38,836 nt of DNA from a virus. Under the pieces are notes generated by a model. It saw only the letters and a program-made list of their open reading frames with translations. It did not search any database and was not told the origin of the DNA. Location: positions 1-38,836 of IMG/VR virus record IMGVR_UViG_3300043399_000361. One strand, 5' to 3'. The translations under genes and the position numbers were made by a program. The stretch's first letter is position 1. Each line of letters opens with the position of its first letter. Shown here in pieces: positions 25,902-29,278 of this stretch.

Positions 25902-26369
25902 TCAAAGCTCCACAAGAAGCTGCTCCCAAGCCCTTCCGGCGCCAGTCCACAAGTCTTTGGCTGCCGAATGTGGGTACTCCTCCACATAGACGATCCGCTG
26001 GCAGCTCGTGTTCAGCAGCAGCTTGCAGCAGGTCATGCATGGGCTGGCCGTCACGTAGGCTGTGTGGATGGCGTACATGTCGCGGCACTGGAGCAAGGCG
26101 TTTTGCTCGGCGTGGATCGCTTGACAGCCATCGAGGTTCGTGCCACTTGGCGCCTGAGCCCCAGAGCAAGCATGGGGAAACCCGATCGGGTGCCATGGGT
26201 CATGCTGGTTGCAGTGAGGAAGACCGGCCGCGACGCCGTTGTACCCTGTTGAGAGCACATGACCACGGGCATTCAGCAAGACACACCCCACAGCTCGTCG
26301 GCAGCAGGTTGTCCGTTGGGCAGTCAGCAAGGCCAGCTTGAGGGCCCACTCGTCGCGGCTGAGTCTCAT
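25902..26369 (-). CDS. dCMP deaminase
   Basis: This 155-residue zinc enzyme converts dCMP to dUMP, feeding ThyX. The zinc site is HAEQNAL (86-92, His86 and proton-shuttle Glu88) with SPCMTC (109-114, Cys111 and Cys114). Extra Cys/His residues in the Gly/Pro-rich insert at about 50-85 resemble the second zinc site or allosteric loop of T4 dCMP deaminase. ATG 26369 is two bases past the stop of the ThyA-like gene; the longer frame is rejected. It is the last gene of the leftward unit. Confidence 0.92.
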   Translation of the reverse strand: MRLSRDEWALKLALLTAQRTTCCRRAVGCVLLNARGHVLSTGYNGVAAGLPHCNQHDPWHPIGFPHACSGAQAPSGTNLDGCQAIHAEQNALLQCRDMYAIHTAYVTASPCMTCCKLLLNTSCQRIVYVEEYPHSAAKDLWTGAGRAWEQLLVEL

Positions 26370-26370
26370 A

Positions 26371-27153
26371 TCAGTGCTCCCACCAACGAAGTTCGTCACC
26401 GACCTTGCTGTCACGCAAAGCAGCCAAGACTTTCATCAGGTTCTGAGGATCGTTCCAGAGCAGGATGTCGGTCTCCGGCTGTTCAAGCACTTCACTGGCC
26501 AAGCACAACTTGGCATCAGCCCAGTTGGTCTCGTACAGGTGGCTTGAAGCGGCCGTCAAGAAAAGACGCCCAGGCTTCACGGCGTTGGCGACTGATCGGT
26601 GCTCATTCAGCAGACCGCAGACCAAGTGACTCAGCATGCTGAAATTGAAGACGTCGTATGGCACGCCAAGCCAGACGTCACTCGACCGCATGAACACGTG
26701 GGCATTGAGCTTGCCACCGCGAATGCTGAAGAAGATCGCCACGGTGCATGGCACGTCTTTGGTCTGAGGTGGGCACTCACGCCAGATGGTCAGTCCAGCT
26801 TGGCGGCTGTCTTCATCGGCCAACAGCTTCTCAACAACGTAGGGCAGTTGCGCCTTGATCTTGGGGCCGTAGGCGCCGAAGAAGCGTTCACCATCATCGC
26901 TGAAGTCCTTGATGCGGCTGTTGTATGGGGCAATCGTCTCGACACGGTCGTCGCCAGACAGGATCCAAAAGGCTTCAGCTGCCATGAACTTGTAGCTCAG
27001 GCTGCGATCAGGTACACGGAGCACCGGACGGCGCATGTCGACCACCATGGTGCGTTGAGGAATCTCACGGGTCATCTTGCCACGCGGCGCCACTGGGTCA
27101 CCGTTGGCAAGAATGTCGTTGATGGCGTCGAGCCAAGTTCTTGAAAAGTCCAT
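26371..27153 (-). CDS. ThyA-family enzyme, probable dCMP hydroxymethylase
   Basis: This 260-residue protein has the ThyA framework: EAFWILSGDDR (60-70), GAYGPKI (93-99), catalytic Cys136 in KDVPCTVA, the phosphate-binding RSSD (156-159), and HLY near the C-terminus. After WLGVPYDV, Asp167 aligns with Asn177 of E. coli ThyA. That Asn selects uracil; Asp at this position marks dCMP hydroxymethylases such as T4 gp42, and the Asn-to-Asp change in ThyA gives cytosine specificity. Lys82 replaces Trp80 of E. coli. I infer a dCMP hydroxymethylase or methylase. It lies between the deaminase and kinase genes; AAGGA precedes ATG 27153. Confidence 0.82.
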   Translation of the reverse strand: MDFSRTWLDAINDILANGDPVAPRGKMTREIPQRTMVVDMRRPVLRVPDRSLSYKFMAAEAFWILSGDDRVETIAPYNSRIKDFSDDGERFFGAYGPKIKAQLPYVVEKLLADEDSRQAGLTIWRECPPQTKDVPCTVAIFFSIRGGKLNAHVFMRSSDVWLGVPYDVFNFSMLSHLVCGLLNEHRSVANAVKPGRLFLTAASSHLYETNWADAKLCLASEVLEQPETDILLWNDPQNLMKVLAALRDSKVGDELRWWEH

Positions 27154-27162
27154 GATGCTTCC

Positions 27163-28074
27163 TTAGATGAGGTCCAGCAGAGGATACCGCTGGCCGTGTT
27201 TGAATCGCTTCCAGCTCTGTGGGTGCTGGACAGTTGCCGCCTTGATCTTCAGCCGGTACAGCTGCTGGTAGGCTTCAGTGCCAAGTGTGATGACGCGCTC
27301 AGGAGTCAGGTCATGCAGCACAGACAGGTCCTGGTCTGAGTTGAGCCAGAGAATCTGATCCTCGCCCATCTCGATCAGATCAAGCTTCTCAGCCAACCAC
27401 TGGCTGCAACCTTCGCCGCTGAACGAGGCAAATGGCCATTGGTAGAACGAGTCACAGTCCTTGCGCTCGGCAAAAGCTTCACCAATCAGCACGATGCGCC
27501 CGTCCCAGTTGCCAGCCGAAGCCAAGTTCAACGGATGCTGGCGCATGCGCAGACCTTCGATCGTCATGGCCAGCTTGGCGTCGGCAAACAGATCGCCCTT
27601 GGTGTAGTCGTAGTCTAGCAGAGGCAGGTCGGTGGCCTGCTCCGCGTAGATGTCGTAGACCGTTTTGAGCTGGTGCTCGTTGTCCAGCATCTCCATGTGC
27701 TTGCGGCTGAGGTAGTTGGCCTTGACCGTCTCCCAAGCCGGTTGGCACTTGACCACCACGGCGCCGCAGCGCATGGCCAGACGCTCAAGCATCCGACGGC
27801 TGGCATCAGTCAAGCGATCACGGCCCTCGCGAAACGCGACGCCGTAAGGCATCTCGCTCAGCCAGCAGCGATCGAAGACCACGTCTTGGTAACCGAGCAG
27901 CGCAGGCAGCATGGCCTCCACGTACATGCGACCCAAGTTGCGACTGACTCGTGGCAATGCTGGGAAGTGGACGTACTTGGCGCCCGTCGACTCAGCAAAG
28001 ACCTTGGCAGCCGTGCTTTTGCCGCCTCCATCGGGACCTTCAAAGATGGTCAGCTTGCAGCTCACTTTGTCCAT
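27163..28074 (-). CDS. P-loop nucleotide kinase fused to a UDG-like domain
   Basis: The N-terminal part of this 303-residue protein (about 1-175) is a thymidylate-kinase-like P-loop domain with EGPDGGGKST (12-21), DVVFDRCWLSE (64-74) and a lid-like LSRKHMEMLDN. The C-terminal part (about 190-292) follows the uracil-DNA-glycosylase fold pattern: RIVLIGEAFAERKD (193-206), WPF (213-215), SGEGCSQWL (219-227), VITLGTEAYQQL (261-272) and HPQSWKR (284-290). The usual GEAPG is GEAFA, so ordinary uracil excision is doubtful. It probably phosphorylates the modified dNMP, with the second domain binding or editing bases. It overlaps the MazG-like gene by 13 bases. Confidence 0.75.
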   Translation of the reverse strand: MDKVSCKLTIFEGPDGGGKSTAAKVFAESTGAKYVHFPALPRVSRNLGRMYVEAMLPALLGYQDVVFDRCWLSEMPYGVAFREGRDRLTDASRRMLERLAMRCGAVVVKCQPAWETVKANYLSRKHMEMLDNEHQLKTVYDIYAEQATDLPLLDYDYTKGDLFADAKLAMTIEGLRMRQHPLNLASAGNWDGRIVLIGEAFAERKDCDSFYQWPFASFSGEGCSQWLAEKLDLIEMGEDQILWLNSDQDLSVLHDLTPERVITLGTEAYQQLYRLKIKAATVQHPQSWKRFKHGQRYPLLDLI

Positions 28075-28460
28075 GACAGTACCTCTTCCAGACGAGCTTC
28101 AGGGCCTACCCAGCCTGCAGGCTTCTTGACGTCGAAAGCACTGCCGCGCTTCGAGTCTTCGGCCTTGGCCACTCGGACCTTGGCCATGTTGCAGTTGTGA
28201 ACTGCGTGCATGCCGGCGTGCCACTGGGCTGGACTGATGCCGGCAAAAAGAGCGGTGCCATAGGCCACGTAGGCCAGATCCAGCAGCGCGTCAAATGCCT
28301 TCACCTTGTTGCCCTCAGCCAAAGCTTCCTTGAGTTCATCAAGCTCCTCTTGGAGGAACTTGACGCGGAATTCCTGCGCAGCAGGATCTTGCATGAGTTG
28401 ATCGTCGGTACCCAACGGGAGACCGAACTTCTCATGGAATTCAGCGACATTTCCAATCAT
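28062..28460 (-). CDS. MazG-like nucleoside triphosphate pyrophosphatase
   Basis: This 132-residue all-alpha NTP pyrophosphatase family member carries the metal-binding pattern EELDELKE (38-45) and FDALLDLAYVAYG (56-68), as in MazG and related dUTPase/dCTPase folds. In this gene cluster, hydrolysis of dCTP to dCMP would remove the normal nucleotide and feed the hydroxymethylase, the job of T4 gp56; that substrate is inference. The start overlaps the methyltransferase stop (TGATG). Confidence 0.78.
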   Translation of the reverse strand: MIGNVAEFHEKFGLPLGTDDQLMQDPAAQEFRVKFLQEELDELKEALAEGNKVKAFDALLDLAYVAYGTALFAGISPAQWHAGMHAVHNCNMAKVRVAKAEDSKRGSAFDVKKPAGWVGPEARLEEVLSWTK

Positions 28461-29278
28461 CAGAACGGCGCTCCTTTCGTTGCCTTGCGTGCCACAGGCT
28501 TGACAGGCTTGCCATCAGCTGCTTTGCGGCACACCCACAGGTTGTTGCGGGCGTGGTCTTCATGCAGCGGGCCAAAGATGTTGCTGATGGCATCGTTGTC
28601 GAAGTACTGCTCCAACGCTTTGCGGACTTCCAGCACGGCCGCCTTGCTGCAGCCAGTGGGGTCAACCTTGCCGATGTGCTTGATGTCCATGAACGTACCG
28701 AAGCGTCGCTCGATGACGTAGCCAGCCTTCTCGATGGCAGCCTGCAGCTCAGGCACCTTGTACTCGTGGATGTGGTTCTTGGCGTGACGCACGCCGTCGT
28801 AGACCGGGGTTGAGAGCAGCAACACGCCGCCCGGCTTGGTAGCCGCAAACATGGCCTTGAGCAGATTGGCACCATGCTCGACCTTCATGTGCTCAATGAC
28901 CTCGTAGTTGACAACGACATCGAAACCCTCGGGACGCGCCTTGAGGAGTTCCTTGTAACGCTCGACGAAGTTGAACTCGCCGATGAACTGGAGACGCTGG
29001 ATGTTGGACGGCTTCAGCTTGTTGAGGTCCACGCCAGTGTAGTGGTTGACATGAGCAGTTGTGCCGCCAGTGAGAATCTTGCTGAGCGGTTTGTCTTCCC
29101 CGCAGCCGACTTCAAGGACGTTGTGCTTGGCCGTGATGAATCGACGGGCAAAACTCCAGCGCCAGAAGTGGGCGGAGTAGTCGCGGTGCAGGGTGCGGCC
29201 ATGGACAGCTTCGTGCAGTTGTGTGGTATCGTAGTCGCGGGAGTCACGGGAAACTTCTTTGGTGCTTGATTTAGGCAT
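28460..29278 (-). CDS. Class I SAM-dependent methyltransferase
   Basis: This 272-residue protein has VLEVGCG (54-60) as SAM-binding motif I, TGVDLN (81-86), FDVVVNYEVIEHM (119-131) and KPGGVLLLSTP (148-158). It is the Methyltransf_11/23 style used for small molecules, with no DPPY or PCQ motif of the usual DNA methylases. HIHEY (169-173) suggests a substrate or metal site. The target is unknown. It is the first gene of the nucleotide-modification cluster and couples to the MazG-like gene, so tailoring of a modified nucleotide or base is a reasonable guess. AAGGA precedes ATG 29278. Confidence 0.82.
   Translation of the reverse strand: MPKSSTKEVSRDSRDYDTTQLHEAVHGRTLHRDYSAHFWRWSFARRFITAKHNVLEVGCGEDKPLSKILTGGTTAHVNHYTGVDLNKLKPSNIQRLQFIGEFNFVERYKELLKARPEGFDVVVNYEVIEHMKVEHGANLLKAMFAATKPGGVLLLSTPVYDGVRHAKNHIHEYKVPELQAAIEKAGYVIERRFGTFMDIKHIGKVDPTGCSKAAVLEVRKALEQYFDNDAISNIFGPLHEDHARNNLWVCRKAADGKPVKPVARKATKGAPF

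Follow-up and report, generated by a model that had tools for sequence, protein, structure and literature searches.

A dNMP kinase-like protein fused to a compact uracil-DNA glycosylase-superfamily domain in a putative phage cytosine-modification operon

Organization of the gene and its operon

In the DNA under study (the window, the whole analysed stretch of 38,836 nucleotides), a gene at 27163..28074 on the minus strand encodes a 303-amino acid protein that consists of a dNMP kinase domain (residues 1-178) and a compact domain of the uracil-DNA glycosylase (UDG) superfamily (residues ~188-303). The first-pass annotation had located the gene correctly at 27163-28074 without giving a strand; translation of the plus strand contains stops, and the open reading frame (ORF) lies on the minus strand. 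The MazG-like gene upstream (28062-28460) overlaps at its end with the ATG of this gene at 28074, and the stop is 9 bases short of the ATG of a thymidylate-synthase (TS) homologue, which starts at 27153. AlphaFold predicted the whole protein confidently (pLDDT 95.2, pTM 0.93). An assembly or annotation artefact was ruled out, because the same kind of fused ORF turned up at 59 of the loci in the first set, including the cultured phages AXL3 and PW916.

The gene is part of a tightly packed operon that lies downstream of genes for a helicase, exonucleases, and DNA polymerase A. All members are on the minus strand, in the order SAM methyltransferase (28460..29278; PF13489, 4.1e-13), MazG-like NTP pyrophosphohydrolase (28062..28460; PF01503, 4.8e-12; phrog_671, 4.1e-24), kinase-UDG gene, TS homologue (26371..27153; PF00303, 2e-22), and dCMP deaminase (25902..26414; PF00383, 2.3e-19; phrog_174, 3.8e-38). 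The MazG-like product is a candidate dCTPase, a role inferred from the T4 pathway. The TS homologue is of the dCMP type and is probably a dCMP hydroxymethylase or methylase. The target of the methyltransferase is unknown; its substrate may be the modified base or nucleotide. Its gene is a frequent partner, found in operons with the fusion and in operons with an Nmad1-like gene, and is often the best conserved member of the operon, with identity of up to 97% where the kinase-UDG gene is missing from the operon (for example L158, of the Nmad1-like type).

The kinase half

The N-terminal domain (27541..28074, minus strand) carries a P-loop, EGPDGGGKS, at residues 12-20, and the first-pass annotation had assigned a thymidylate-kinase layout to the first 175 residues. 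This assignment was borne out, since residues 7-170 matched PHROG 761 "thymidylate kinase" (phrog_761, 3.7e-16) and a profile of the kinase half (alignment A2) matched YorR of SPbeta (2axp) at 6.9e-16. The window protein alone did not reach the cut-off of PF02223 (Thymidylate_kin; 15.2 vs 27 bits), and its best kinase match stood at 0.018. The solved structures nearest to the full-length model were YorR (3kb2; Z 14.1, rmsd 3.9, 165 residues) and human thymidylate kinase (TMPK; 2xx3, Z 13.9), which we treated as ties, as we did all structures within 1 Z unit. G13, G18, K19, D68, and R69, which lie in the P-loop and the DR motif, were invariant in alignment A2. Residues 1-178 are thus a dNMP kinase of the YorR/thymidylate-kinase type, which share with it the kinase fold and the P-loop and DR motifs. 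The substrate is inferred and is probably modified dCMP. Unlike the window protein, YorR has no UDG domain.

The UDG-fold half

For the C-terminal half (residues 188-303; 27166..27513, minus strand), the first-pass annotation had recognized the spaced UDG-superfamily motifs GEA, WPF, SGEG, VITLG, and HP in residues 193-290. These are present, far beyond chance, as G198-E199-A200, W213-P214-F215, S219-G222, V261-G265, and H284-P285, and GEAPG does read GEAFA, as had been noticed. Because the window protein alone had no Pfam UDG match at E<=1, the identification depends on relatives. Of the 28 PDB sequences that a domain-only profile (alignment A6, 56 sequences) matched at E<=1, all but one were family-4/UdgX UDGs (27; best E 2.4e-4), and the remaining chain stood at 0.99; PF03167 (UDG) was matched by 15 of 19 standalone members of the family (best 1.3e-4). 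The AlphaFold model of one standalone protein, L068 (pLDDT 90.5), aligned with the family-4 UDG 4zbx (Z 10.8, rmsd 3.2, 131 residues), next with 1ui0, 1vk2, and UdgX, and at lower rank with MUG, SMUG, and TDG. The PDB matches of the window model covered the kinase half only, and the fold evidence from its own C-terminal half (pLDDT 95) is limited to the order of strands and helices, which is the same as in the L068 model. Together, the profile and fold evidence ruled out a chance match of motifs. The structure prediction and fold search that had been proposed for the two halves could have refuted the UDG idea by revealing another fold or a mere extension of the kinase; the idea survived, and standalone homologues without any kinase exist.

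The domain shares with family-4 UDGs and UdgX (PF03167) the fold, the motif order, and the positions of the acid, Phe, Asn, and His of the pocket. It is, however, shorter (~116 vs ~190 amino acids in family-4 UDGs, motifs 2 and 3 being separated by short spacers), is fused to a kinase, and reads HPQ..KRF where those enzymes have HPS. Family-4 UDGs hold an Fe-S cluster with four cysteines, and UdgX has a covalent His109 in the loop after motif 2. The four-Cys test was not met, as the window C-terminal half has only C207 and C223 (the latter is Cys in 43/56 sequences), nor was the covalent-His test, as no conserved His was found between N245 and G265 in A6. Because of its short length and the absence of both a conserved four-Cys set and a UdgX-type His, we did not file the domain in either family; it forms a compact branch within the UDG superfamily, marked by the signature HPQ..KRF.

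The pocket residues E199, F215, N245, and H284 are strongly conserved. Among the 56 sequences of alignment A4, 53 have an acid at position 199 (27 Asp, 26 Glu) and 54 have Phe at position 215; N245, G265, A268, H284, P285, Q286, R290, and F291 are invariant. The equivalence of the acid, Phe, and Asn to known pockets rests on HMM alignment, in which position 199 pairs with the Glu of the UdgX GEQPG motif and N245 with the motif-2 Asn; that of the His rests on motif order. Position 201 is Phe in 24/56 sequences and Pro in 9/56. GEAFA is a derived form, since some relatives keep P-G in this motif. In six pairs among four close sequences, dN/dS was 0.06-0.14 for the C-terminal half and 0.03-0.14 for the kinase half; purifying selection on the two halves is equal. 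The conserved pocket and the low dN/dS indicate that the UDG-fold domain is maintained and not decaying. The invariant Asn suggests a 4-keto base, with the caveat that its side chain fits uracil-like bases but could turn to read cytosine. Glycosylase activity remains an inference.

Distribution of fused and standalone forms

We found the fused protein in 60 loci, that is, 57 viral-contig loci from two scans and three named phage records. The kinase part is lost at the contig end in one (L008), which leaves 59 fused ORFs. In the three named records, Stenotrophomonas phage AXL3 (gp29), PW916, and one from a spring-water phage, the fused gene lies in the same operon, and the AXL3 protein is 46% identical to that of the window. 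A search of the phage collection with the C-terminal half alone returned only these three, plus three records at E 6-7 that were dropped. The genome-contig scan gave one relative, L237 (DYMC01000001.1), with 83% identity to the window gene, on a 34 kb contig in a "Lentisphaera" MAG that is probably a mis-binned phage. A bacterial origin was rejected on this single relative, itself probably phage; the pattern search sees close motif matches only, and distant bacterial kin are not excluded.

Further loci encode the C-terminal domain as a standalone protein of ~140-200 amino acids, and jumbo phages carry it alone, often beside gp32. In a tree of the domain, a single branch (support 88/82, 90% of bootstrap trees) split 48 fused from 23 standalone rows. 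The tree was built on 131 columns and many of its forks are unresolved, and it is consistent with one fusion or one split. In standalone copies of the GEQ type, a gene for a gp32-type ssDNA-binding protein follows in five of the six loci examined (L071 being the exception), and then one for a UvsX-type recombinase (recognized by eye in L056). The gp32 gene adjoins directly in four loci, with two small ORFs between in L088. For the standalone form, this context suggests a role on DNA and not on nucleotides. Copies of the GDRPGP type adjoin, by ORF reading, structural- or lysis-looking genes and not repair genes. The idea that the standalone gene always lies near nucleotide genes therefore fails for both types. 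In L069 (4045-4896), the GDRPGP-type gene has a 2OG-Fe(II) oxygenase neighbour (Pfam 5.9e-16). L078 (2620-3255), L079, L082 (3980-4612), L099, L101 (2164-2796), L106, and L117 have a conserved ORF of ~210 amino acids, similar by eye, in the oxygenase slot; the three of these ORFs that were scanned had no Pfam match.

A distant homologue, gp315 of Bacillus phage G (L156:5928-6923; hhalign probability 95 vs A6), passed both Pfam cut-offs (UDG, 48.2 vs 24.3 bits; Thymidylate_kin, 28.9 vs 27 bits). Its gene adjoins those for a dCMP deaminase and a dCMP-type TS homologue (RSNDIIFGTPYD). Motif 1 of gp315 is NPG in place of GEAPG, as in MUG/SMUG-type enzymes. An alpha-glucosyltransferase gene lies near it (PMC6024577). 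RefSeq labels both AXL3 gp29 and phage G gp315 "thymidylate kinase", and the fusion is unrecognized there.

Link to cytosine modification

In the T4 enzyme, Asp179 decides between dCMP and dUMP and Cys148 is catalytic (PMC6400193). The window TS homologue has Asp at the dCMP-specificity position (RSSDVWLGVPYD) and the catalytic Cys in PCTV, and so met the test for the dCMP type. Among the 60 fused loci, 59 have a TS homologue on the DNA examined (L040 is without one there), and the dCMP-type Asp is present in 59/59; the loci are partly near-copies and are not 59 independent cases. A reverse scan by TS alignment alone found Asp in all of the best 80 of at least 573 confirmed matches. Of these 80 loci, 52 carry the fusion, 6 a kinase without the domain, 16 an Nmad1-like gene, and 6 none of these; the shares hold only for close kin of the window TS, and the fusion and the Nmad1-like gene never occurred together (0/80). 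Taken as sequence evidence, the Asp in 59/59 neighbours and the fusion at 52 of the best 80 of at least 573 TS loci strongly support the proposed link of the fused gene to a putative cytosine-modification operon.

Contigs with the standalone domain gave a similar picture. A TS homologue was present on 9/15, and all nine include the dCMP type; seven of these also have a canonical TS, which reads Asn in 7/7 and thereby checks the Asp/Asn reading. The other six contigs are without a TS homologue, and the records may be fragments. A phrog_761 kinase lies within 6 kb of the dCMP-type TS in 7/9 jumbo contigs, but this profile also matched all 14 control genomes, and the result is a lead to a split version of the system, not proof.

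The Nmad1-like (DUF1599-like) gene, of ~130 amino acids, sits between the MazG and TS genes in the kinase-UDG slot, even where the flanking genes are ~90% identical to those of the window. Examples are L157:5603-5995, L174:5549-5983, and L194:5585-6001, with 13 more among the TS loci. The Nmad1 label is only weakly backed by Pfam (0.01-0.07, below the cut-off). On whole contigs, the phrog_761 kinase was found in 0/10 records of the Nmad1-like type vs 6/6 of the fused type. The A6 profile matched 0/17 contigs with the Nmad1-like gene (10), with the kinase only, or with neither, vs 17/17 carriers (15 standalone and 2 fused); here, too, fragmentary records are possible.

Comparison with known systems

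The first-pass annotation knew of no standard enzyme with this fusion. That part stood, as a kinase-UDG fusion is not described in the full-text literature searched (most subscription papers were outside its scope); uniqueness to the window did not, as the protein belongs to a large phage family. New relative to that literature are the kinase fusion, the compact branch, the link to dCMP-type TS, and the exchange with the Nmad1-like gene. UDG domains on phage polymerases and the action of a UDG fold on modified cytosine are already known from PaBG and Brig1, respectively. In PaBG, a UDG domain stands at the N-terminus of the DNA polymerase (PMC7412058). The phiLo polymerase (9qhs), which was among the structural matches of the L068 model, also has its UDG domain at the N-terminus; no paper on it was found in our literature search. 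Polymerases of the PaBG group and phiLo resemble the window protein in joining a UDG-fold domain to an enzyme of phage replication, but the partner is a polymerase and the UDG domain is full-length. Brig1 acts on modified cytosine, with a Glu (E147) proposed at the Watson-Crick face (PMC11078745). It shares with the domain described here the superfamily, the connection to modified cytosine, and Sulfolobus tokodaii UDG as the nearest structure, whereas it is a standalone bacterial defence enzyme against such phages and has Glu, not Asn, at the base face.

The closest pathway is that of T4, with dCTP removal, dCMP hydroxymethylase, and a dNMP kinase for hydroxymethyl-dCMP (PMC6400193). The window operon has the same set of steps; in its relatives, however, the kinase gene is swappable for the Nmad1-like gene. 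We know of no UDG domain on the T4 kinase. The AXL3 authors labelled gp29 a thymidylate kinase and reported that AXL3 DNA was cut by only 2/37 restriction enzymes, both with A/T-only sites (PMC7504290). Such resistance is expected if cytosine is replaced.

Possible functions of the fusion

Our best explanation, which we hold with somewhat less than even confidence, is a two-domain enzyme in which the kinase charges modified dCMP and the UDG-fold half excises a wrong pyrimidine from DNA. The phage that carries the gene would replace cytosine in its own DNA. The YorR/TMPK-type half would phosphorylate the 5-modified dCMP supplied by the adjacent dCMP-type TS homologue, as the T4 dNMP kinase does for hydroxymethyl-dCMP. 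The UDG-fold half would recognize a 4-keto pyrimidine where modified cytosine belongs, namely uracil or deaminated modified cytosine, and would take it out by base excision. The most likely substrate is DNA, at the replication fork or close to it, and joining the two domains would keep this base check beside the supply of the modified nucleotide. Since deamination of a cytosine with a 5-substituent should, by inference, yield a 5-substituted uracil, a dedicated glycosylase would be sensible. The kinase substrate, the glycosylase activity and its substrate, and the choice of DNA over free nucleotide are all inferred. Against this explanation, no activity has been shown, the domain is short, GEAPG is degraded to GEAFA, and the standalone copies of the GDRPGP type have structural- or lysis-looking neighbours instead of repair genes. 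Moreover, among the best 80 of at least 573 TS loci, the 6 with the kinase only, the 16 with the Nmad1-like gene, and the 6 with neither indicate that the domain is dispensable to some dCMP-type phages.

The same weaknesses leave room for a domain that does not cut at all. In this possible but unlikely reading, the glycosidic bond stays intact, and the UDG-fold half, by binding a template base or a pyrimidine nucleotide, would modulate the kinase or anchor it at the replication machinery. The short domain, the alteration of GEAPG in the fused clade (Phe and Pro at position 201), the Asp/Glu interchange at 199, the very confident relative placement of the halves (pTM 0.93), and the standalone copies beside gp32 are all compatible with it. 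A pure binder would not need the nearly fixed His284 and acid at 199, and copies that lack a kinase mean that kinase tuning is not the whole story. A DNA-level role is in turn challenged by the kinase partner, which would be as natural for a job on nucleotides. The domain might then strip unwanted monophosphates (dUMP, dCMP, or deaminated modified dCMP) of their base by hydrolysis, ahead of the kinase step that would charge them; the gene lies within a nucleotide-pool operon whose dCMP deaminase could make the wrong product. We consider this rather improbable given that the standalone gene can lie beside gp32 and UvsX genes. The known UDGs work on DNA, and to our knowledge there is no UDG-fold nucleotide hydrolase.

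Finally, the protein could be what its RefSeq label says, a plain thymidylate kinase that acts on dTMP and whose C-terminal extension has no function. The labels of the AXL3 and phage G records, the nearness of the fold to YorR and TMPK, and the kinase without the domain in 6 of the best 80 of at least 573 TS loci agree with this. We regard it as very unlikely, because the C-terminal half forms a UDG fold of its own, keeps its pocket residues fixed, and is under strong purifying selection, and all TS homologues found beside the fusion are of the dCMP type, although dTMP as one of the substrates is not excluded. Returning to excision from DNA, a broader and more speculative form of this reading, which we put forward as a doubtful working idea, is a dedicated base checkpoint in cytosine-replacing phages. 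The checkpoint would be a UDG-fold domain of minimal size, either joined to the kinase for the modified nucleotide or encoded beside an ssDNA-binding protein, and it would read and remove a wrong pyrimidine (uracil or deaminated modified cytosine, and possibly also cytosine without a modification). An Nmad1-like protein, with another solution to this problem, could take the place of the entire kinase-checkpoint gene in the operon.

The UDG superfamily is known as a source of DNA repair tools and, in Brig1, of bacterial weapons against cytosine-modified phages; here, a member is borne by the phage itself, within the putative modification pathway. The Nmad1-like gene in the same slot is a direct lead on the function of Nmad1 proteins. 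If the domain is active, it would explain genes labelled only "thymidylate kinase" in AXL3 and phage G, would offer new base-specific glycosylases, and would show how phages with modified DNA keep their alphabet clean.
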